DNA from: Chlorella sorokiniana
Lineage: Eukaryota > Chlorophyta > Trebouxiophyceae > Chlorellales > Chlorellaceae
Assembly (NCBI GenBank): GCA_025917655.1
Contig: CP084614.1
Location: forward strand, 1,116,001 to 1,180,000
Reading direction: 5' to 3'
Length of the DNA stretch: 64,000 nt
How positions within the stretch are numbered: the first letter of the stretch is position 1; each line of letters begins with the position of its first letter. Both the position numbers and the translations under genes were made by a program. This document shows, one piece after another, positions 3,283 to 54,227 of the stretch. The notes below the pieces were generated by a model. The model made no database searches. It was not told where the DNA came from and saw only the letters and a program-made list of their open reading frames with translations.

Positions 3283-6200
3283 GGTGCCGCCTCCTTTGGA
3301 GTCTTGTTTGGCGGCGATGCAGGGCCGCTCAAACTGCAGCCCATCGACCTTCTTGGCGTGGAGACTGAGCATGCATTGCCCCTGGCTAACCCAGTGCTCA
3401 CACCGCTGGAGCTCACTGAGCAGCTGTCCTCTGGCGGCGGCACGGGAGACAACTCCACCGGCAGGCTGGCCGCCGTGGATGCCCTCTCTCACCCCACACT
3501 GGTGGCCACCCCCGACAACCGGCTGCTGCTGTTCTTTGCGGCGCACGCATGCGGGCGGGACCGGTGGGGCATCGCCGCGGCGGAGTCGCCGGACGGCAGC
3601 GGGCTGACCTGGCGAGGGCTGGGCATGGTGGCAGAGGACGAAGCCCGCGACCTGCACGCCCCCGCCCTGTTCCAGCACGACGGCCAGGTGGGGCGCACGT
3701 GGTGCATGGCCCTCTACCTCTGGCTCGCCCTGGTGGCGCAGCAGCACCGAGCGCCAGGGACCCCGCTCAGCAGAGCCAGGGTTTTCAGTCCCAGTCGCCG
3801 CTGCGCATTGCGCCGACCCTGCACTGGTGCCAGCTGCCCCCCCCGCCCCCGGCCTCCCCCTCTGACTGGTCCGCAGTGGTACCTGGTGCCGGAGGCGGAG
3901 GGACAGCAGGAGGTGCGGCTCCTCGCCGCCGACCGCTTCCCTGTGAGCTGGCGGCCGGCCGGCACGCTGCTGCGGCAGCCCCTGTCTGGGGTGCGCGTGG
4001 CGCAGCACGGGGGCGCCTGGTGGCTCGTGGGGCACAGGCGCAGCGCTGGCGCCAGCGAGGCAGACCGCCTGGCGGTGTTCACTGCACGCTCGCCGCTGGG
4101 GCCCTGGGAGGAGCACCCGGCGGCGGCGGCCCCCACCACGCGCCCACCAGCGCCGGCAGCCTGCTCTCCTGGAACGACAGCCTGCTGCGGGTGGGCCGCT
4201 CCTGCCGCGGCGGCGTGTGCGGCGCGGGCTGGCCGCTGTGGAGATGCAGGCGGCGGGAGGGGGCCTGCAGGAGCGGCGGGTGCCGCTGGATGTGGGGAGC
4301 GTCTGTGGCGCCAGCGCACCGCCTGGGACTCGGCGGGCTGGACCCACCTGGCGGTCGCCCGCCGCCCCGACGGCGCCTGGCTGGCGGTGGTACAGGGCTC
4401 GCAGCTGCCGCCAGAGGCGCCCGCGCTGTCGCGCCAGCTGCAGGCGGCAATCGCAGCGCTGCGCGCCTGCGCCTTGGCCTGCATCCTGATGCTGCTGCTC
4501 AGCGCGGCGGTGCGGCTGCCGCCGCTGCGTGCCGCCCTGCGCCGGCGGCGCTGGGGACGGCTTCTGCTGGGCTGTGCGGGCGGGTCGGTGCCTCGCAAGG
4601 CGGGCCAAGCAGAGGGCAGGGCGGATGGCGCCACCCTGCTGCCCACCGTGTTTGTCCAGCTGCTGGGAGCGCAGGCTGCCCACGCCAAGCTCACATCCCG
4701 GCCGCGCAGCACCGGCAGCGCCACGCAGCACCAGGCGGGCGGCGGCAGCGCCCGACCGCAGGCAGCGGCCGAGCCGCGGCGCGCGGCGGCGCCCTGGCGC
4801 GACTGCGCCGCCACCTGCCGCCCTGGCGCGTTGCGCTGGCGTCGCTCGCTCTGGTTGCCGCGCTGGGCGGGATGTCAGCAACGCGCCGCGTGCAGCGCAT
4901 CGCGCAGCCCTTCTTTGTGCCGCCGCACGCGCTGCCTGTGGGCGGCCAGTGGAGCCGCTTCACTCTGATGGTGATGAGCTACGACGCGCGCCTGCGCCAG
5001 CTGCGCTGGTACGTCAGCCACTACTCGCGCTGCCCCTCGGTTGGTGAGTGTGCAGCGTGTGCTTTTTGCTGTGCGTTGGGACCACATTGCGCGGCCTGAC
5101 GCCCATCCTGCCAGCTGCAGCTGCCTCAGCGCGCCTGCCGGCGGGGTGTCAAGAGCCTCCGCCGCCGCTGCTGCCCAGGCGAGATACTGGTGGTGTGGAA
5201 CCGCGGGCGCCGCCCCGCCCCGCCGACCTGGGCAGCGCGGTGCCGGTGCGGGTTCGGCGCGAGGCGGCCAACTCCATGAACAACCGCTTCCGCCCCGACC
5301 CGGACATGCGGTTCAGGTGCGGGAGCGGGGGTGGGGGTGTGAGGGCGGGGGCCAGCCCGGGCCAGGGCCTGTTGCTGTGCAGGCGGCGTCCCCGCAAGCG
5401 TGCGGACAGCACCTGTAGGGCCAGTCCAGGGCCCTGTCAACCAACTGTGCTGTGGCTGAGCAGCCGCTCAGCAGCTGCCCCCTGCGAGCTGTGCTGTGCC
5501 CCCCCCAAACACACACAGGGCGGTGCTGTCCCTGGACGACGACATCATGATGCCCTGCACCACCATAGAGGCTGCCTTTGCGCGGTGGCGCCGCACGCCG
5601 CACACGCTGCTGGGGTTCTACCCGCGCCTGCTGCTGCCCCAGGGGGCGGGACGCGCCGGGGCCTCCCGTGTACCGCTTTGAGGACAGCGTGTTTGAGCAG
5701 GTGCGCTCCCGGCAGGCCTGACCGCCCGGATCCTGCGTTCGAACCGCACCCTCCAACGGTGCTGCCGGGTGCGCTGCCAACGGCCCTCCCCGCTCGCTCC
5801 ATGCCGCCGCGCTGCTGCGCCCTCAGGGCGCGTACAACGCCATCCTGGCGGGGGCGGCCTTCATGGACAGCGCCGCCCTGTTCCCGCTCTACTCCTCCCC
5901 GGCTCTGGGCGCTGCGCGCGCTTTGGTGGATGAGGGTGAGGTGTGGGGGGGGTGGGGGGCAGGTTGTGGGGATGGGTCGTGTGGGTGGGGGCCAGGCAGG
6001 ACAAGGAGGAGCAGTTGACAAGTAAATCTGTTCCATGTTCCATGATTAAACAGCAAAGCAAGGGGGGTGGCGTCCTGGAGGCATCTGTGCTTGAGTAGCC
6101 GCCGCCCACCACCTCCCCACCCCCACATTGGCGCTGCTGTGTGCACGGTGGTGCGGCCAATGCCGCAATCGCCTGCCGCCTCCCACCCTTCTTTTGCCAG

Positions 6201-7035: not shown

Positions 7036-9427
7036 ATGAAGCCCCCATCGCCATCGTTAATTAGACCGACCCTGCGCAGCAAAATCCGCATTCTGCTCCT
7101 TGCAGCAGTCGTAGTTGCGGCAGTGGTGGCAGTGAAAGGTGCGAACGCACTGCTTGGCGTTGGCGGCCAGCGCGCCCTCTGGGTGCAGCCGCTTGGTTCA
7201 CAGGCAGTTGGCTCTGGCCGCCCTGCGTTGCTCCCAGTCAGCCACCCCTCCTCCTTTGCTGCCCTACAGGAAGGTTCTCGCTGCAGAAGCAACGACAGCC
7301 TGCACCGCAAGCAGCGGCTGATGCAGGTGTTGCTTCTGCTGGCATTTCCGCGTCCAAGGGCCTGCGAACCGCTGCCGCCTGCCAGCTGACGCGCCGTGCA
7401 CCTCACGACCACAATATCTTGCTTCGCAGGAGGAAAGAGCGAAGGGCAGGATGGGGGGATGGGCGGGTTCTTTCCTGCACCGCGAGGCCGACCCGCAGCT
7501 CAACACCCTGCTGGACCGCAGCAGCCGGCTGTCGCCGGTGGTGCGCTGCACTGCTGACGTTCACTTCACCAAGCTGGCCGCGAGCCAGCTGAGCCAGTTG
7601 AACGAGGCAATTGAGCGGGCGGTTAAGTCCAACCAGACGATGCGGCCCCCAGGGGTTGCCTTTGCTGCGCAGCGAATGCCATGCCAGTGAGTCGCTGGTG
7701 TGGGCTCGCGCTGGCCGGCACCCAGCGGCACATGCCCAAGCGATGCATGTGACCGGACTTTGGCTTCATGCGCTGGTCTGTTGCGAGCAGGCCCGCAGCT
7801 CCCGCTGTTGACCCTGTGCTCGGCTGCCTGCAGGGCGGGCACCATCGCCGCGCAGAAGGGCAAGTGCTGCGCGCAGCCGGTGCACTTCCGCCTCGGCTCC
7901 ACCGACTTCTCCGTCTTCCAGCAGGTGGGCGCCGTGCGCGCTGCTGGCTGCTGCCTGGCATGCATGCCACGCCGCCGCTGCTGCTGGTGCTTGGGTCCCT
8001 GCCAGCTGACCTGGCCGGGCCGCCCTCCACCCTCCGCAGGTGTTTCAGTACCACTACATGCGCTACCTGTACACCCTGTTTGCGGAAGAGCCGCCGCAGT
8101 ACATCCTGGACGCGGGTGGGCGGTGCTGCCTGGCCAGCGGCCAGCGCGGCCTGCCAAACACTGCTGCTGTCCCAGCCCCACCGGACCTCTGCGGCCGCCG
8201 CCCTCACATGCATGTGCCGCTCGCGGGCCCTGTCCTGCCTCTGCCCTGTAGGCGCCAACGCCGGCTTTGCCAGCCTGCTGTTCAAGCTGCTGTGGCCCAA
8301 CACCACCGTCGTCTCGCTGGAGCCAGACGCCTCGAACTTTGCCATGCTGCAGGCCAACACCAGGGGTGCGCAGGGCCGCGTTTTGATCTTTGTGTTTCGA
8401 CTTTTCCTGTATATGTGTGTGGGGGGGAGGTGCGCGGCGCGGCGGTGCGATTGCACTGGCTGGGGCAGGAACGGGTGTATGTGCATGCCGAGTGGCGGCA
8501 GGCGGCGTGCGCAGCGCGTGTGTGGGTAGCAGCCCTGAGGGAGCCAAGCATCGCGTTTCCCGTGTCGCCTCACCTCCTCCCCTGCTCCCTGCCTGCCCTG
8601 TGCACCTCCCCTGGCCTGGCCGCAGCTTCAGGGGGCTGCATGCGCTGAACGCGGGGCTGTGGGGCCACAAGGCCAACATCACCGTGAAGACCACCCAGCA
8701 CGGCAACTGGGGCCGCGTGTTCCGTGAGGCCGAGGCCGGCGAGAGCGGCATGCCCGCATACTCGGTCGCTGACGTGGCCGCCATGCTGAACATCCCTGCC
8801 TTTGACTTTGTGAAGATTGACATCGAGGGTAGGGCTCGCATGCCCCGTGTGTGTGTGTGTGCGTGTGAGAGGGTGGTGTTGGGGGATGCGGGGTGGAGGG
8901 CCATGCCACAAGCAGCAGACGGGCCTGCTGCACCTGCCTGCAAAGATCTGTGCTGGTGGCCAACCGCTGCCCTACACCTGTCCCTTCCTCCCGCGCCGCC
9001 CGCAGGCGCGGAGGGCATGGTGTTTGAGCCCAGCGCCGACTTTGGCTGGATCAAGCAGGCCCGCGCCGTGTCCCTGGAGATCCACGACTACTTTGCCGAC
9101 TACTTTGGGCTGGGCCCCACCTCGGAGCAGGTGGTGTCCAAGCGCATCGCAGCCGCCTTTGCCCCTACCGGCTACCGCTCCGCCTCCGACAACGAGCACG
9201 TCCTCTTCATCCAACCCGCCCACCTGGACTCCTTGATGGCCTCCCCCGCCATGGCCGGCGCCAAGAAGGCCGCCGAGGCGGCGGAAGCAGCCGCAAAGAA
9301 GGCAGCAGCCGCAAAAACGCGCCCAAAGGAGACGGACCGTAGCGCTGCGGTGCACTTGCTTCTGCTGTATGCGCAATGCCTGCCTCGCATGTATGCCTGG
9401 TCCAGCTTTCGAACATGCAGTGATTGA
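7036..9427 (+). CDS. FkbM-family S-adenosylmethionine methyltransferase with N-terminal signal anchor
   Basis: The protein is a Methyltransf_21 (FkbM) type enzyme, an O-methyltransferase family with varied or unknown substrates. The start at 7036 gives a short basic N-terminus and a hydrophobic anchor (IRILLLAAVVVAAVVAV), so a type II protein of the secretory pathway is likely. The SAM-binding core is split over exons: ILDAGANAGFASLLFKLLWP with VVSLEPDASNFAMLQANT (8103-8365), FRGLHALNAGLWGHKANITV (8627-8686) and FDFVKIDIEGAEGMVFEP (8811-9033). Exons fit roughly 7036-7138, 7270-7326, 7430-7682, 7834-7924, 8040-8115, 8252-8365, 8626-8828 and 9006-9427. Phases at two early junctions do not close, so the 5' exons are approximate. 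The C-terminus is a Lys/Ala-rich tail. The substrate is unknown; glycan methylation is a guess from the anchor. Confidence 0.8.
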
Positions 9428-44256: not shown

Positions 44257-45903
44257 TCACAACGGCTGCGTGGTGTCGTATTCCTTCCGCGGGTGGATGC
44301 CCTTTGCCGCCCTCTCTCGCTTGGCGCGAAGCTGCCTCACCGCCTCCGCATCCCAGGCAGGGTCGGAGCGGCGCTCAAAGCTGAAGATGGGCGCCCTCAG
44401 CGGCAGTGCGCCGGTGGGGTCGGTGGGCGGCAGGTGGCAGAGTTCCGAAGCTGCAAGCTGCGGCAGCGCTGCTGCAGCGTCGCACAGGCCGGCGCAGACG
44501 GGAATGTCGTAGACTGCCAGGGAGGTGGCGCTGCAGTTTGTCTCACACAGTCGGCGGTCGTCGTAATGGTTTGCGTTGAAGGCCAGCAGCCAGCTGCCAA
44601 TCGTCACGTCTGCGCAGCACAGCGAGCCGATGAGGCACCGAAACAGCGGTTGAGCATGCTGCCTGGCCCACAGGCAGCGCGCAGGTGGAGGCGGCCCGTC
44701 GCGGTGCCCACCTTCATTGGCAAACTGGCGCAGGCTGCCGTCACGCATGGCGGCCAGGTCCCGCGCCACGCGCCCGCTCAGCACGTAGATGCTGCCCCAG
44801 GCGTGTGTGAAGTAGGAGGAGCCGCCCAGCAGCTGGTGCTGCGGCTCGTACCATCTGTACCGAGGCGATTTGATGATCTGCCCCGTCTTCATGCAGCCAA
44901 CGTAGTCTGCACACAAGCCAGCCGACGCGGGTGAGGGATGGGTGGTGAGGCGCTGAAGACCCGCCAAACACCGCCTGGACGGGCAGCGCCAGCCACAGAG
45001 CGCCGGTGTGCAGAGCACATGCATGCAGGCATCCCACCCGCTGAGATGTCATGCCACTGCGCCACCGCGTGCGGCAGACGGTCCAGCCGCAGGTACACGT
45101 CGTCGTCGACCTTCACGATGTACTGCGGATTGTACTGCTCGGTCACAGCCTGCTCGATGAGTGCATCGAACGCAGGTCGATGAAGGATTCAGCGCTGTGC
45201 AGCTGCGGCCGGCAGCCTGCCAAGGGTTCCCCGTGGTGTGCACCCACCCTGAGGAACATCAGAGTCTTGGTGGGCAAGCTGTTGTAGGCCTCTGTGAGGT
45301 CCAGGCGCAGGAAGTCGCCATGTGCTGCCTCCTCCGCCTCAATGGCTGCCTTCTGTGCGGGGTCGGTCGAATGGCCGATTACAAAGCGCACTCGGATGCC
45401 CTGCTCCAGCTCCAGAGCAGCCAGCGCCGCGGTGCTGCTGGGCACCCATGATGACCGCAGCGCCTGCCGCCGTGCCTCGTAATTGTACTTGACTTCCTGG
45501 CTTGTTGTGAAGCCGGTCTGCACACTAAGAGTAGTGCCGTTGAGCTAGTGTATTGAGGCTGGCCAGCCCCAGTTAGAAATGGGCCAGGGTGCGGTTAGCG
45601 CCGCAGCGGGCGGGAGGCAGATTGGGAGAGCGGGCTCGCCTGGACCCCAACGAACGCCAGAAGGGGCGTGTGCCGGCGATGGGCGCCCTTCAGGCTGCCC
45701 GCCTGCCCTTCCAAGGCACCCCGCTCGGTGTTGGCTGTGCCAACACTGTCGAGTGAACCCGGAACGTCGCTTGCTGCTGATATAAGGGTTCTGATTATCC
45801 ATCCGAGCGCCAAGCCCAGCACCAGAGGCGCCAGCTGCCCGGCCATCGCTCGCCCGCTCCCATTCCTCAGCTGAGGCCTGCCGCTGTGTCGCGGCAACAT
45901 CAA
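44257..45903 (-). CDS. GT31 family beta-1,3-galactosyltransferase-like type II membrane protein
   Basis: GT31 enzymes add beta-1,3-linked galactose or N-acetylglucosamine in the Golgi. The N-terminus has one hydrophobic anchor (LAPLVLGLALGWIIRTLIS) and a stem. The domain follows: YEARRQALRSSWVPS, RVRFVIGHS, EEAAHGDFLRLDLTEAYNSL, PTKTLMFLR, QYIVKVDDDVYLRLDRLPHA (DDD metal motif), YRWYEPQHQLLGGSSYFTHA, WGSIYVLSGRVARDLA and DVTIGSWLLAFNANHYDDRR. The end is Cys-rich with a basic tail. Exon 1 ends at 45640 with CAG|GCGAGC, a GC-type donor, and exon 2 starts at 45517 so that V-Q-T-G-F is continuous. Further junctions: 45248 to about 45151, then near 45052, 44907 and 44609. The start could be 45903 or the in-frame ATG at 45846, which puts the anchor nearer the N-terminus. 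The acceptor sugar is unknown. Confidence 0.87.
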
Positions 45904-47173
45904 TCATGCAAATCAGGTCATGTGTGTCATTGTAACGGGAGCTTTCAATCGAGGACAAGCGTTCGCCAGAGGTGAGGTGGTACAGCAGTGTGCCGCAGCA
46001 GCGTTGGTTTAGCAGCCATCGATTTCTTGCCCAGACTGCTGTGTTTAAACAGTGTCATGACGGATTCTTCAACGCTGTAGTCGTCGTAGAGACGATTTTA
46101 TGTGAATTGCTTACTCCTGTCCGGCATCTCAACCAGGAACAGTCAAACAGTGAGCGCCGTGCCGCAAAACCGCCGCTTGGTGCGTCTGTCGAGAAGGCTC
46201 GTGAGACTTTCTACTTAACATCACATGAAACTCTTGATCTGCTATTGTTGACTGTCTGCTGCACGCAGAGGGATCAGCGGCAATATGTCAAGGCGACGTG
46301 CCTGAAGCCGACTGTGACGCTGGGACTGGGGGACATGGTTTGGCGATCACCTGCGACTGTTAGGCCTGCCAAAGACACACTCACATATTTATGTAACTGT
46401 GTACGCATGATGAGTGCCGAAGCACGGCTAAACTTTGGAAATAATTCATTTGTCACGAGCAGTCGGCGGCGGCGGGCGGGCGCAGCCCTTGCCTGGGCCT
46501 CCCGGGAGGTGCTGGTTGGTCCCGCAGGAGAAGTGGCCAACAATGCATGTATGAATGGCGAGGAATCCGGTCGCGATTCGAGGCCCGGGGACTCTCGTCT
46601 TGCTGCGCTGGCGGCTTGCCCTTCCCCACCACGAAATTCGGATGGGGACGTGAAACGGTCATTACTGTCGGTGCAGCGCTCGTTTCGACTTTGTACCTCG
46701 TTATATTCTCGAATGGGACACTAGACGCACCTTGCAAGCCTGAATGCAGTTCCAGACGGCCTTCACCCAGGGGCCCGGCCCCCGGGCCTGCAGCAGTTCT
46801 ATCAGCCCTGCAGTCCCTCCCTGCATGCTGATAGCGCCAGCAGCGGCAGCTGGAGCAACGTCAGCTGGAGCGGGGAAGACTCGCTGGGGGTACCCAGCCG
46901 CGACTCCCCCTGCGGGCCTGCAGCGCACCCATCAACCTTGCAGCGGTGCATATGGCATCCTTGTCCATCGAGGATGCAATGGCTTTGCAAAAGGTGGGGC
47001 CTTGCGCGCCCATCTCGCCCCAACAGCCTTGACCGACTGGCTGGGGCTCACCAGCCTTGGCTGCACACGCCCCGGGACGCTTGCGCCGCGCTGATCCATC
47101 GCATTACCGCCCTCTCGACACCTGTATCCGCCCGCAGGCCGCCTCGCTCGGCGTTCAGCAGGCTGCCACTACA
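45904..47173. other. Divergent spacer between GT31 and PPR-SMR-cyclin genes, with a possible 5' exon
   Basis: This 1.27-kb stretch is AT-richer than its flanks up to about 46450. It contains a 250-codon frame without an ATG start (45972-46724) that resembles no family I know, so I read it as non-coding. At 46791-46995 a frame reads FYQPCSPSLHADSASS and then WSNVSWSGEDSLGVPSRDSP, which looks like protein and could be an upstream exon of the PPR gene. Confidence 0.4.
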
Positions 47174-48332
47174 ATGTCCGTGGGCTGGGGAGGCGCCCCC
47201 TTGCAGCAACAGCAAATGGGGCACCCGGCACCGCGTTTCAGACAGCACCCGCAAGACGACGGCAGCTACAGTGGCGGCGGCGCCGCTGGGGGCGCGCCCT
47301 ACGCCGCCGGTCCCGCTTTCCAGCGCGGCCGCAACGGCGGTGGCCGTGGCAGGCCCCCTCCGCAGCAGCAGCATGTGAATCTCCACCAGCGTCAGGGTCG
47401 GCAGCATGGTGTCGATCCACGACAGAAGAACCAGGGCTATCGCCGTCTGTGGCAGCAGGTCACTCAGGTGAACTTCTGGGCTGCAGGGAGGGAGGGGGCA
47501 GGGGGTGGCATGCATGCAGGCAGGAGTTGTGTGCTGCCTTTGGCCCTCGCATGTTGGCTGCTGGATGTCACAAACTCTCGGGGCACCTGCGCATGGGCTG
47601 GCCAGCTAGTTTTTGGGGTGTTGCACGACACAGCTCTGTAATCTGATGGAGCTGGCGGCGACAACAGCGACCCAGTTGGGGCCGTACTGTTGGCCACGTC
47701 CCGCTGTTTGCATTTTGCCACTCTATGCCAGCTCTCCTCATCAGTCTCACCCAGCTCCCTCTCTTGTTTCTGTCGCTGCGTGCAGGTGAGCCGCGGCCAG
47801 AAGCTGGGCAACGGCGAGGGTGGCGGCCTCTCGGAGATGACTGTGGAGGACCTGCTGGAGGTGGGTGGGGAGGGAGCGGGGCGGCGGCCAACCCATGCTT
47901 CACGTGGCTGCACACGCCCGGCAACGTTGCTGCGTACCCGCTGAGCGGCATCGACACCCGCCGACGCCCAGCCGCTGCCCCCTGCCCCTCGCCTATTGTC
48001 AGGTGGTGCGCCGCCTGCCGCCCGAGGCGTCTGCTGTGAAGGCCATCAACCAGGGCCTCTACTACCTGGACTCCGGCGCCCTGGCCGCGCTGCTCAAGGA
48101 GCTGAACAAGAGCGGGCACGTGCGGCGTGCGCAGGAGGTGCGTGCCTGGGCGGCTGTCCTGGGCGGGGTGCGAGGGGCCTCGCTGCGCAAGGCCTGTTCC
48201 TTGTGCCCGTTTGAGCAGCAGGCTTGTAAATATTCTTGTGCGTGTGCCAGACCATCTGCAACTTGAGGTCGCATGCCCTGCCTACGGCCAGCCTCTGCGC
48301 AACCCTTGCATACCCCTGCGGTTCAGTATCCC

Positions 48333-48368
<36 letters not shown>

Positions 48369-51300
48369 GCCAGATCTTTGACTGGCTGCGCACCCTGGAC
48401 GACACGCACGACCTCTACCACCTGTGCAACACCATGACCTTCACCACCGCCATCAGCCAGGTCAGCGCACGAGCCGCGCTGAAGGTCCCTGGGCCTGGCA
48501 GTGCCGCCAGCCGAGCGCACATTGCCGCACGCACCAAGCTGCACCAACTCGAGCTCCAGCTCTGCCTGCCAACTCTTCTTGCTCCGCTCCCTGCCCTCCC
48601 TGCCTTGCAGTGCGGCTCGCAGCAGCAGCTGCGCGCGCGCTGGAGCTGGTGGCGGAGATGCGGTCCCGCGGCATCCAGTGCAACGTGCACACCTACTCCG
48701 CCCTCATGAACGTGTGCATCAAGGGCAACGAGCTGGACCTGGCCCTGGACGTGTACCGCCAGATGCTGGCTGAGGGCTGCACGCCCAACCTCGTCACATG
48801 TGAGCCGCTGCCGGGCAGGCGCCGCCCGCCCAGCGCAATTCCCCCTTGGCGCTGCGCCTCTGCCCGCATGGATGGTACAGCTTGGCGGTGCGCTGATGGG
48901 AAATACCCCCCCCTTGACCCCCCAGACAACACCCTGATTGACGTGTATGGCAAGACGGGGGCGTGGGAGGAGGCGATCCGCGTGCTGGACGCGCTGGAGG
49001 CCCAGGGCATAGACCCCGAGATTCGCACCTACAACACGGGTGGGTGGGGGAGCAGGGAAGTGCCGCCTGCACTGCGCAGCCGCTCGACCACACCCCCGAC
49101 GACGGCCGCCACGCTCACCACCCGACCCCTCCCTGCCCTGCGCAGTCATCATTGCGTGCAACATGAGCGGCCAGGCGCAGGAGGCTCTGCGCATCTATGA
49201 GCGCATGCTGGCGGCGGGGGCGCAGGTGGGTCAGGGTGGCGGTGTTTCCTGTGCACCCGCAGCCTGGCCTTGCAGCGACGTGTCTTCCCGCCGTGTGCAC
49301 TGCCCACCGCGCAACCCCTCCTGCTCCTCGCGCTGCGCAGCCCACCTCCACCACCATGACTGCCCTCATCTCCGCCTATGGCAAGAACGGGCAGCTGGAC
49401 CGCGCGCTGCAGATCTTCCAGGTGTGTGGCGGGGATGATCCGGGGGCCGGGGCACGATCGCCTCAGCACTTGCTTTGGCAGAAGCAGGGTGTGCTTCCTG
49501 CCCTCCTTCCCAACTCAGCCTGTCCCTCACGCGCCCCCCTTTGACTTCCTCCTCTGCAGGACATGGTGCGGCGCGGGTGCGAGCGCAACGTCATCACCTA
49601 CTCCTCCCTCATCTCCGCCTGCGAGAAGGCGGGGCGGTGGGAGCTTGCGCTGGAGCTGTTCCGAGAGATGCACACAGAGGGCTGCCGCCCCAACGTGGTT
49701 ACCTGTGAGCCCAGCCTGCCGGCTGCCGCTGGGGGGCTGCCTGCACTGGCCTGCCTCTGCACGCCTGGCGGCACCCCCCGTGGCAGCGCTGCGTCCGATT
49801 GCTGCATCGGCCCCACCTGCCCCTCTCGCCTTTGAGCCCCTGCCTCACTTGCACCGCGCCCACCCCGCCCCTTCCTGCAGTCAACTCTCTGATTGCGGCA
49901 TGCGCCCAGGGTGCTCAGTGGGAGAAGGCGCAGGAGCTGTTTGAGCAGATGCAGCACCGCGGCTGCAAGCCCGACTCGGTCACCTTTGTGAGTGGGCGGG
50001 TGGGGGCGCCCGGCGCTGGAGGAGGGCCCGCTGCAGCACGGGCTGTTTGTCGCTGCGCAGCGCATGCTGATGCCCCCTGCCCCCCCCCCCCAGGGCGGCC
50101 TCATCTCGGCGTACGACCGCGCAGGTCAGTGGCGCCGCGCCCTCGCCGCCTTTGAGCAGATGAAGGGGTACGGGTGCCGCCCCGACAGCGTGGTGTACAA
50201 CACCGTGGTGGGGGCGCTGTGGAGGACGGGCCTCGTGTGGGCGCAGGTGCGTGTGGGGGGGAGGAGAGGCGGGCGGGAGGGGGCCTGGCTGGGAGCAGGT
50301 GTGCTGGCCTCGGCGCAGATGACCCAGCCCCTGCAGGCCCCTCTGTCATCCAGCTTGATGCGGAGTGGCGGCGCCTGTACAGCCCACAGGCTACCGACCT
50401 CACCCGTCCCGCCTCCCCTGCGCACCCCCACCCCTCTCCCCTCCCCCTGCAGGCCAAGGCGACGCAGATCTTCCACGCAGCCTGCCGCCAGGGCCACTTC
50501 CGCCTCACGGTGCACACGCTGGACGCGGCGGCGGCCGCCGCCCCTCTGCCGCACCCTCCCCGCTGGTCGCGGGCGGCCTCCCCCGCTCCTCCTCCCTGTC
50601 GTCCGCCCTGGCGCAGGAGGCGGCGGCCGCCCTGCCCGTCACCGCCGCCGGCCCCGCCAGCTGCGGCGGCTTTGGCCGCGCCAGCGCCGCGCCCTCCCGA
50701 CCTGCCCCGCCCGCCGACGCTGTCGCTGGGCAGCGGGGGCAGCGGCGACCTGTGCAGCGGCCCCTGCGGCGGCAGCGGATCGTGCGGCGCTCACTGCGAC
50801 GGGCCCTCCCCCTCCCCCGACCTCCTCTCCCCGCTGTCCTGCGCCACCCCCGCCCTGCCGGCCACCCCCACCGCCACCCTCACCTCCGCCTACCCCGCCC
50901 GGGCAGCCCCAGCCCCAGCGGCAGCCCCCTCTCGGAGGCCGCGCTGGCCGCCGCCGCGGCCTGTGGCGGCGCTGTCCCAGGCAGCGGCGCGGGCACCCTC
51001 ATCGAGTTTGGCATGCACGCCTTCACCGTCGGCTCCGCCGTGCTCTCCCTGCTGCGCTGGGTGGCGGAGCTGCGGGAGCGGCTGCCGCGGGAGCCGGCCA
51101 AGGACCTGCAGCAGCAGGTGGGTGTGGAGGGGTTGGGGGGGTGGGGGCTGGGCCGTGGCGCCGCTGCCAGGTGCCCCCTGCCTGTGCTTCCTCCTCCCCC
51201 GCTGATACCAGGCCGCCCCCACACCCCCACACCCCCACACGCGCACATCTTTCCCCCGCAGGTCTGCCTGGTGCTGAACAAGGGCAAGCCGAGCCGCGAG

Positions 51301-52934
51301 CACACATACCCGTCCATCCGCGCCGCGCTGCTCTCCCTGCTCACCGCCTGGCGCTCGCCCTTTGCCCTGGCAGACGTGCCGCAGGGCTGCCGCATCCAGG
51401 CCACAGCCTGCGACATCACCGGTGCGCGGCCTGGCTTGCCCAGCGCGCCCCGCTGCCGCTTGGCTGGCTGATTTGGCGCCCCTGCTACGCCGCACCGCCC
51501 CTGCTGCTGCGGGTCGGGCCGGGGCGCCCTCACCTCGTCCCCAGCCCCACCCCCACGCGGCCCCCTGCCTCCCCCCGCAGACTGGCTCCACACCGCCGAG
51601 GCCGACCGCGCCCTGGCTGCCTACTGCGCCAAGGGCGAGTGCGGCGGGCGCCCCTGGCCAAGGAGGCTTTCTTCCAGGACGATGTGGCGGCGGAGGTGCG
51701 GCGGCGGCGCGCTGCGCAACCCCCTGCCCTGCCTGGCTGTTGGTTTTGGGGGGCCCAGAAGGGGGCTGTTCTGCCTTGGGACGGTTGGTGGTGGTCCAGG
51801 GCGGGCCGCTGTACGCCAGCGGGGCAGCAGATGCCTTGCCAGCACCCCAACAGCCAGCGGCTGCTCACACCTCCCAGCCCCCTCCTTTCCTCCCCCTGGT
51901 GCAGGCCCGCTGCATGGAGGCCTTCTGCGCGGTGCGCGCCTTTGAGGCGCGCTACTGCGTGCCCGACGCCGCGCTGCCGCCCGCCTACCTGGCGGGCCGG
52001 GCGACTGGTTTGCCACGGGGGCCACCTTTGCCGCCGCCTTCTCCCTCAAGGGCGAGGTGCTGCACGACGCGCTGCTGCTGCTGGACCGCGCCGTGGCGGC
52101 GGGCGGCGAGCAGCTGCTGGGGCTCAACGCCGCCGCCCTGCTGGTGGCCTGCCTCCTCATCTCCGCGCGCCAGGGTGAGCGCCGGCGGGCACCCGACCCC
52201 GCCCCGCCGTGCGGCGCCGCACGCCAGCCAGCCTGGCTCCGTCTGCTTGGCTGCCATGCCGCCCTGCCCTTGCCCGCGGACACCCCCAGCCCACACTTCA
52301 CACCTTTCGTCGCCTCTCCCCGCGAGTGCAGCCGGCGAGCACCCCGACCGCCTGCCAGCGCCCGCCCAGCTGGAGCAAGCTACTGGGCTGTCGGGGCGGC
52401 GGTGGAGGCCACCCAGGCCACCGTGCGCGCGGTACTGCAGGGAGACACCTCCGCCATCTCGGGTGAGGGCGGCGGGGGGCGGCGGGTCGGGGGGGGGGGT
52501 CGGGAAAGGGGGACAGCCTCTGTAGGTGCACATGGCCGCGGGGCTTGCTGCGGTTGCACCAGCTGTTTTGATCAGCGGCCGTGCCACTGGCTCATCACTC
52601 GCACCCCTGGTCCCCGCTGTTGCCGCCGCAGCCCTGCGCGTGCTGAAGCTGATGCTGGAGCGTCTGGGCGCCGACTTTGGCAACCAGAGGGTGGGCCACG
52701 CGCTGGCCGCCCTCAACCAGGCCGCCTGCCAGCCGGCGCTGCGCGCCATGCGCCCTCCGCCCTCGCCGCCGCCGTGCTGCTGGCCAGCCGCAAGGCCACG
52801 GGCGCCACCCCTTCTGGCCCTCCACCCTGGCCGGGCTGACGGGCTGCATGGATGCCGAAGGCTCCCAGCTCAGCGCCGACTGCGACCAGGTGGTGGCGGC
52901 GCTGGCCGACGCCACCCTGCCTGCCATGGCTTGA
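47174..52934 (+). CDS. PPR protein with SMR-like domain and C-terminal cyclin fold
   Basis: PPR proteins bind organelle RNA. Gly/Gln-rich N-terminus (MSVGWGGAPLQQQQMGHPAP), then about eight P-type PPR repeats, many one per exon: CNVHTYSALMNVCIKGNELD (48680-48739), YNTLIDVYGKTGAWEEAIRV, VIIACNMSGQAQEALRIYER, TALISAYGKNGQLDRALQIF, NVITYSSLISACEKAGRWEL, FNSLIAACAQGAQWEKAQEL and GGLISAYDRAGQWRRALAAF (50094-50153). A Pro/Ala/Ser-rich linker follows. An SMR-like domain (50998-51420) reads IEFGMHAFTVGSAVLSLLRW and CLVLNKGKPSREHTYPSIRA. The C-terminal 300 residues have a cyclin pattern: LLLLDRAVAAGGEQLLGLNA, LLVACLLISARQ (52071-52173), LEQATGLS.AAVEATQATVR, then a second lobe with ALAAAVLLASRKATGATPFW and PSTLAGLTG (about 52768-52841). 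Exons to 51117 join in phase except near 48635; frames break near 50540, 51645, 52000, 52395 and 52800. No obvious transit peptide at this start. Confidence 0.85.
48335..48367. repeat. (CA)n microsatellite just before a 3' splice site
   Basis: CA tract that ends six bases before the acceptor at 48373 in the PPR gene. Confidence 0.9.
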
Positions 52935-54227
52935 GCCCCGCTCCCACCCAGCCGCCCTGGTTTAAGGGCAGCGGGCGCGGTGGGGATGCGCGTCCGCCCT
53001 GCTGGCCAGCCCCGCCATGCAAACCAAACCACCCCAAACACGCATGGAGTCGTTTCCGCGCCGAGTTTTGTCCCCCTCTCATTGCCGCTGCAGGCAAACA
53101 GTTTTCAGGTCTGCATGCCCACCCTGCCTGTTCTTCGCTCCCAACGCCGGCTTTTCCCCTCTGCCCCATCTCCAGGCCGCGGCTGTGCCGGCTGCGCCGC
53201 GTGCCCGGTTTTTCATTCCGTTTTGCCGCCGCTTTCCTGGCCCCCAGGCGCTTGCACCAACGCATCGCCGCCTGCTTCATTGCGTCTTGACCGCCTCGGC
53301 AGCCTTCCCCGTGCTGCCGTGCACCCTTCCGCATGCGGACCCTGTCCCCGCTGGCGGCCCCGAGAATCCCTCCCCAACCCACCACATCGCTGCTCTTTCC
53401 ACTCACCCCAAACGAATGGTCACTCCGATTGGTTGCTGGCGAGCGCGCGTTTGGGCGCCGCCCCCTGCCCCTGCCCACCCCCTCCCTTCAGCCCCGCGAC
53501 GCCATGCTCCGCCCCTTTGCGGCGCAGCCGCGGGCCGCTTGAGTGAATCCCTGGCCTTTGCTTTGCGGCCACTTCATCCATCGCGCACACACTGCTGTTG
53601 TTTTGGCTGCCCCGACCGCCCTCCCGCCCAGCCTTTGCGTGGGCGGCGGTGCAGGTGCAGCCTGTGCCCGGTCCCCCGGGCCTGAACCCCACCCCACCCC
53701 TTGCCGAGTCCGATGGCTGCCCCGCGCCAGCCTGCCTTTCGTTTCTCCGTCTTGGAGCAGCCTCTTCTTTGCCCCGTGTCACCGTTGCGTCGACAGGATT
53801 GCGAGTCGCCGCCGCGTCATGGTCGGCGTCGCCTCACGTGTACCCACCTTTGCACATGGCTGCCTGCCTGGGCCTGGCCCCAAGCGCTGCCACCGCACAT
53901 TGCTCATTCTTTCCTGCCCTAAACGCACCGCCCCGTGCGCGGCTCCAGCGGCATGCCCCCTTCCCTGCCGCTGTTCACCCACCGCATGTGGGCCGGTGTG
54001 GGCCCCCAGCCCCACAGACCGTACAGTCCGCCCAATTTTTCCAGAGACCGGCATTCTTTTGGCTTCCTGCACAAACTAAAACCATCCGAATCAACGGCAT
54101 CCCCACCCACCCCCTTTTACCCGACAATGTGTTTTTGTGCCTCCTTGTTCTGTGGCCGCTTACCCCGGCCGCGCAAGTCGTTTTGAGTGAAGCAGTGTTG
54201 TTGTTTTTTGTTTTCAAGCGCTTGTAA
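52935..54227 (+). other. Long pyrimidine-rich 3' region of the PPR-SMR-cyclin gene
   Basis: About 1.3 kb follow the stop codon with strong C and T excess on the coding strand and no recognisable gene. Open frames here (e.g. 53543-54079) are rich in Pro, Ala, Cys and Ser and resemble no family. The first TGTAA after the stop is at 54223-54227, so I read the stretch as an unusually long 3' untranslated region. Confidence 0.5.
54223..54227 (+). terminator. TGTAA polyadenylation signal, probable end of the PPR-SMR-cyclin transcript
   Basis: First TGTAA after the stop at 52934. It sits where the pyrimidine-rich stretch ends. Confidence 0.5.

Follow-up and report, generated by a model that had tools for sequence, protein, structure and literature searches.

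Among the PPR proteins of Chlamydomonas, PPR3, PPR4 and PPR6 are PPR-cyclins with an SmR domain and PPR31 is an OPR-RAP PPR-cyclin, as reportedly set out by Tourasse et al. in 2013. A table in PMC9368121 labels PPR4 (Cre12.g511400) and PPR6 (Cre10.g437150) as "PPR-Cyclin protein", and the former appears in the gene list of PMC8448359 as "Cyclin-related protein with PPR domain". According to the PPR entries of a 2021 review, PPR3, PPR4 and PPR6 possess 9, 10 and 10 repeats, respectively, with rps4 suggested by the PPR code as target of PPR3 and psbF as target of PPR6, and all three are "Not studied yet" (PMC8635915), yet in a screen of acetate-requiring mutants published in the same year PPR4 is among 253 higher-confidence candidate genes for photosynthesis (PMC8448359). 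The link of PPR4 to a mutant phenotype is a candidate call. Its entry in that list carries the localisation mark "O" (other), meaning that the targeting prediction is not chloroplast, and is also marked for maize and Arabidopsis mutant libraries (PMC8448359). The table of PMC9368121 sets PPR4 and PPR6 opposite Arabidopsis SMR11 and SMR4, a pairing in which SIAMESE-RELATED may have been mixed up with small MutS-related. In the parts of PMC8635915, PMC13126933, PMC6662315, PMC9368121 and PMC8448359 that we covered, and speaking of these five papers rather than of the literature at large, no mechanism is given for the fusion of PPR repeats with a cyclin.

The stretch analysed here, referred to as the window, comprises 64,000 nucleotides of Chlorella sorokiniana and belongs to an assembly of 38.8 Mb in 15 contigs. 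An earlier note on this DNA had assigned PPR repeats, an SMR-like domain and both lobes of a cyclin fold to one protein and had asked whether such fusions are already described. As the label "PPR-cyclin" exists in Chlamydomonas, the architecture is known, and the gene in the window is a further member. A model of 18 exons with GT-AG introns was built from the window sequence on the + strand (46952-52934). The beginning of the gene at 47174, as given in the note, was not confirmed by this model: an ATG at 46952 is in frame, and the stretch further upstream, from 46744, is protein-like in other frames, so that the ATG at 46744 is possibly the true start if further frame breaks exist. Exons 1 and 2 (46952-46993 and 47138-47467; open frame, GT-AG, phase 0) encode a Q/G-rich N-terminal part of low complexity, which is followed by exons 3 and 4 (47786..48137; open frame, GT-AG) in a region ahead of the PPR array that matches the paralog L018. 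The tandem PPR array noticed before in 48374-50246 proved to be real; exons 5-12 (48374..50246) carry approximately nine repeats by manual count and match Pfam PPR_2 in eight stretches (2.9e-87). Exon 13 (50453..51117), delimited by codon-position statistics and an SMR-like profile, comprises the end of the last PPR, a low-complexity linker and the first half of the SMR-like segment; by the same statistics it is read in frame 2 and then in frame 1, with an ambiguous part at about 50600-50900. The second half of the SMR-like segment lies in exons 14 and 15 (51262-51421 and 51581-51695). The cyclin-like N-lobe is encoded by exon 16 (51905..52174), the end of the N-lobe and the start of the C-lobe by exon 17 (52332..52462), and the C-lobe together with the stop codon by exon 18 (52632..52934). 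With frame breaks allowed for, the intron phases, worked out manually, are consistent at all joins across exons 12-18. A galactosyltransferase (PF01762) gene on the minus strand (44257-45544) adjoins the PPR-cyclin gene.

Codon-position statistics revealed seven clear frame breaks at about 48640 (in the PPR exons, -1), 50520, 51650, 51995 (exon 16), 52370 (exon 17), 52740 and 52785 (both exon 18), and the ambiguous linker at 50600-50900 may hold two more. Such a number of breaks might be explained by a window copy decaying into a pseudogene. We regard this as improbable, as each of the seven breaks reads as if a single base were missing from a G/C-rich stretch, and the first stop in the joined frames is the last codon, the linker being left unjoined with two of its frames open. 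Moreover, frame changes within an exon occur in each of the three paralogs described below, in L017 within 5741-5755 and again within 7358-7373, in L018 within 7064-7073 (all in reverse-complement coordinates) and in L019 near 5068. Plastid rbcL of the same assembly (L045, C15:29500-32500) is likewise split across two frames in a stretch without N, which points to uncorrected indels in the assembly. In the neighbouring galactosyltransferase gene, no frame break was found in the pieces inspected. The breaks in the window gene are most probably assembly errors, which is the simplest account.

Taken alone, the cyclin-like domain of the window scored below the Pfam cut-offs with two cyclin-fold families, TFIIB (0.0078) and Cyclin_C (0.068), and as sole query in a PDB search it yielded no match. 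A genome search detected the cyclin-like segment again at C2:3182640-3183440, C3:4021347-4021979 and C2:1463300-1463446. All three of these paralogs passed the Pfam cut-off for Cyclin_C (2.5e-7, 1e-7 and 3.9e-7); Cyclin_N passed in one (3.3e-6), remained below the cut-off in another (0.036) and was absent in the third. The C-terminal cyclin domain of a PPR-cyclin is hence recognised by Pfam through the paralogs. With a profile of the four copies, 65 distinct PDB sequences were recovered at E<=1; cyclin A2 ranked first with 6.9e-8, and the best 60 of the 65 were all cyclins of types A2, D1, D3, B1 or E1. The top alignments span both lobes (profile positions 36-218) and therefore cover the two-lobed cyclin box of CDK-activating cyclins, in agreement with the fold proposed in the earlier note. 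Profile against profile, the relationship to the A- and B-type cyclins of the same genome was weak (34% probability, E 4.2e-4).

To recognise the window copy independently, a profile was made from the three paralogs only, leaving the window sequence out. The joined window domain (51905-52934) matched this profile with E=1.1e-46; the best-scoring of 200 shuffled sequences reached 0.23. Both the N-lobe exons and the C-lobe exon are covered by the profile. The same signal was evident without any joining of frames: among 1069 six-frame ORFs of the window (>=30 aa), the four top-scoring ones are all located on the + strand at 51278-53287 and follow the order of the profile (2.8e-10, 5.2e-6, 7.6e-4 and 5.8e-3), the next ORF reaching E=1. 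Both lobes thus lie where they had been seen, in 51900-52934; of the further proposal that the cyclin part extends from 51580, its presence held and its start did not, as it begins at about 51905 and 51581-51695 belongs to the SMR-like region.

With frame breaks inside exons and a gene model drawn from sequence alone, the locus might also consist of two adjacent genes, with the PPR and SMR parts in the first and the cyclin-like part in the second, or the fusion might be an artefact of joining frames. This is extremely unlikely in our view. Every paralogous cyclin segment has PPR matches nearby on the same strand and, in between, an SMR-like segment that aligns to that of the window, so that the order PPR, SMR-like, cyclin is shared by three paralogs, each on one strand. 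In addition, the phases agree at every join of exons 12-18, the cyclin signal is carried by unjoined ORFs, and PPR-cyclin fusions are listed for Chlamydomonas in the tables cited above. The fitting phases, the domain order repeated by the paralogs and the cyclin matches support a single + strand gene at about 46952-52934, in which the PPR repeats, the SMR-like segment and the two-lobed cyclin-like domain belong to one protein, as the note had suggested.

Pfam detected no SMR domain in any of the four copies, and NCBIfam none in the two copies searched. Compared with the PDB, the SMR-like profile gave two matches below E 10, the better of which was the SMR region of a pTAC2-like PPR-SMR protein (8w9z_E, E=0.048); the relationship is suggestive and statistically not significant. 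The motifs of SMR domains are LDxH and TGxG (PMC6662315). None of the four copies contains either motif intact, as would be required of an SMR endonuclease, and the H of LDxH is retained in three; in the window copy the two positions read FGMH and NKGK. The string that the note had quoted as SMR-like is in frame within exon 14 (51262-51421).

For the cyclin domain, we take two buried cyclin-box residues, R and D, to correspond to R211 and D240 of cyclin A, and the residues contacting the CDK to be the equivalents of K266 and E295. The buried R and D are conserved in all four copies. At the contact pair, the window copy has R/Q and the paralogs have K/E, R/E and E/H, so that both contacts are present in only one of four copies (paralog C2:3.18M). 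As this paralog keeps K and E, it could still bind a CDK. One suggestion of the note was a coupling between organelle RNA metabolism and the cell or day cycle, for which the domain would have to be a working CDK-binding cyclin. In line with this, the fold matches cell-cycle cyclins, cyclin A2 above all, one paralog retains both contact residues, and one Chlamydomonas relative carries the prediction "other" instead of chloroplast. Nevertheless, we consider such a coupling very unlikely and found no support for it in the present data: the pair is substituted by R/Q in the window copy and by E/H in one paralog, and PPR proteins usually act in organelles, a compartment in which, to our knowledge, no CDK is known. 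The loss of most CDK-contact and SMR motif residues argues against a role in the cell cycle or in nicking.

We favour, as the likely explanation, a nuclear green-algal PPR-cyclin whose array binds organelle RNA, whose SMR-like part is probably non-cutting and whose cyclin fold serves as a protein-binding platform. What the sequence itself establishes is the single model with consistent phases, the order of the domains, the cyclin relationship, the degenerate motifs and the three paralogs; plastid location, RNA binding, the platform role and the placement among Chlorella-like algae are inferred. In favour of this explanation speak the plastid targets that the code suggests for PPR3 and PPR6 and the place of PPR4 among the photosynthesis candidates; against it stand the "O" mark of PPR4, the low scores of the window domain by itself, the weak comparison with the genome's A- and B-type cyclins and the non-significant SMR match. 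The PPR array would bind one organelle RNA, most likely a plastid one. The SMR-like domain would be related to the SMR domain of pTAC2 type but degenerate and probably unable to cut. Instead of activating a CDK, the cyclin fold at the C-terminus might attach a protein partner to the RNA held by the array, and the whole protein would then act in RNA stability or in translation. Reuse of the cyclin fold as a binding platform, the second possibility raised in the note, fits these observations better than coupling to the cycle, and as a conjecture it retains its conditional character.

To characterise the putative binding site, the PPR code was read from the residues at positions 5 and 35 in each of repeats 1-8, with a few junction residues read across introns and with weights of our own choice. 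The code of the four paralogous copies reads A A ? ? x A U (G), where x stands for A in two copies, that of the window and C3:4.02M, and for C in the remaining two; for repeat 8 of the window copy (G/D) the code gives no base. The site indicated by this code would end in A-U-(G). Contig C15 (117,793 bases, of which 109,293 are called and the remainder are N) is the plastid and carries rbcL, psbE and psbF, as named from their translations. In a scan of this contig, the start of psbF, AAACCATG (L046, C15:57595), fitted the code of L017 and L019 perfectly with the top score, which is reached at 24 of 218556 plastid positions and at 3 of 254 ORF starts, psbF included. The same gene had been named as a code-suggested target of Chlamydomonas PPR6 in the review (PMC8635915) before the scan was made. 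As the code is short, ATG is common to all start sites and orthology to PPR6 is not established, the match is a lead only. As target of the window protein psbF was rejected, 12 of the 254 plastid ORF starts scoring as well or better, and for L018 (C3:4.02M) it was equally unremarkable (12/254). A search for plastid rps4 with PF00163 returned two matches, neither of them on C15. It is conceivable, and in our opinion rather unlikely, that PPR-cyclins are plastid translation regulators recognising start codons, with two paralogs fitting the psbF start and the CDK-free cyclin fold recruiting or displacing a translation partner.

A fifth locus was found through one paralog, whose cyclin part matches C3:3445701-3446857 (2.9e-9 and 0.039). 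At this locus (L040, C3:3443500-3453400, minus strand), a RAP domain (3.3e-16) and weak PPRs (PPR_long 1.8e-6, barely above the cut-off) lie upstream of the cyclin-like part on the same strand, the end scores below the cut-off with Cyclin_C (0.0095), and the repeats appear OPR-like by eye. L040 thus looks like an OPR-RAP-PPR-cyclin composite, and this is the main sign in the genome of a Chlorella-like alga. With its RAP domain, weak PPRs and PPR-cyclin-like C-terminus it resembles the OPR-RAP/PPR composites of Chlorella and Micractinium as presented in the main text of PMC13126933 (2026), where the word "cyclin" is absent; the window gene differs from these composites, no OPR or RAP part being seen in it.

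The genes described here extend the class of PPR-cyclins, which was reportedly named in 2013, and they provide points that can be tested, namely the loss of contact pair and SMR motifs, the A-U-(G) code and psbF as candidate site for two paralogs. Like the Chlamydomonas PPR-cyclins as these are described, the window protein has a PPR array and a cyclin domain, and what lies between the two is a putative SMR-type domain. The present genome contains at least four such genes and one composite. The number of repeats, approximately nine, is similar to the 9-10 given in the review for Chlamydomonas (PMC8635915). With PPR-SMR proteins of the pTAC2/GUN1 type the window protein shares the array followed by a putative SMR-type domain, as suggested by the weak profile match to the pTAC2-like chain, and differs from them by the lost LDxH and TGxG motifs and the added cyclin domain. 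Compared to the cell-cycle cyclins A, B, D and E, it appears related over both lobes, whereas the fusion to PPR repeats and the lost CDK-contact residues set it apart.
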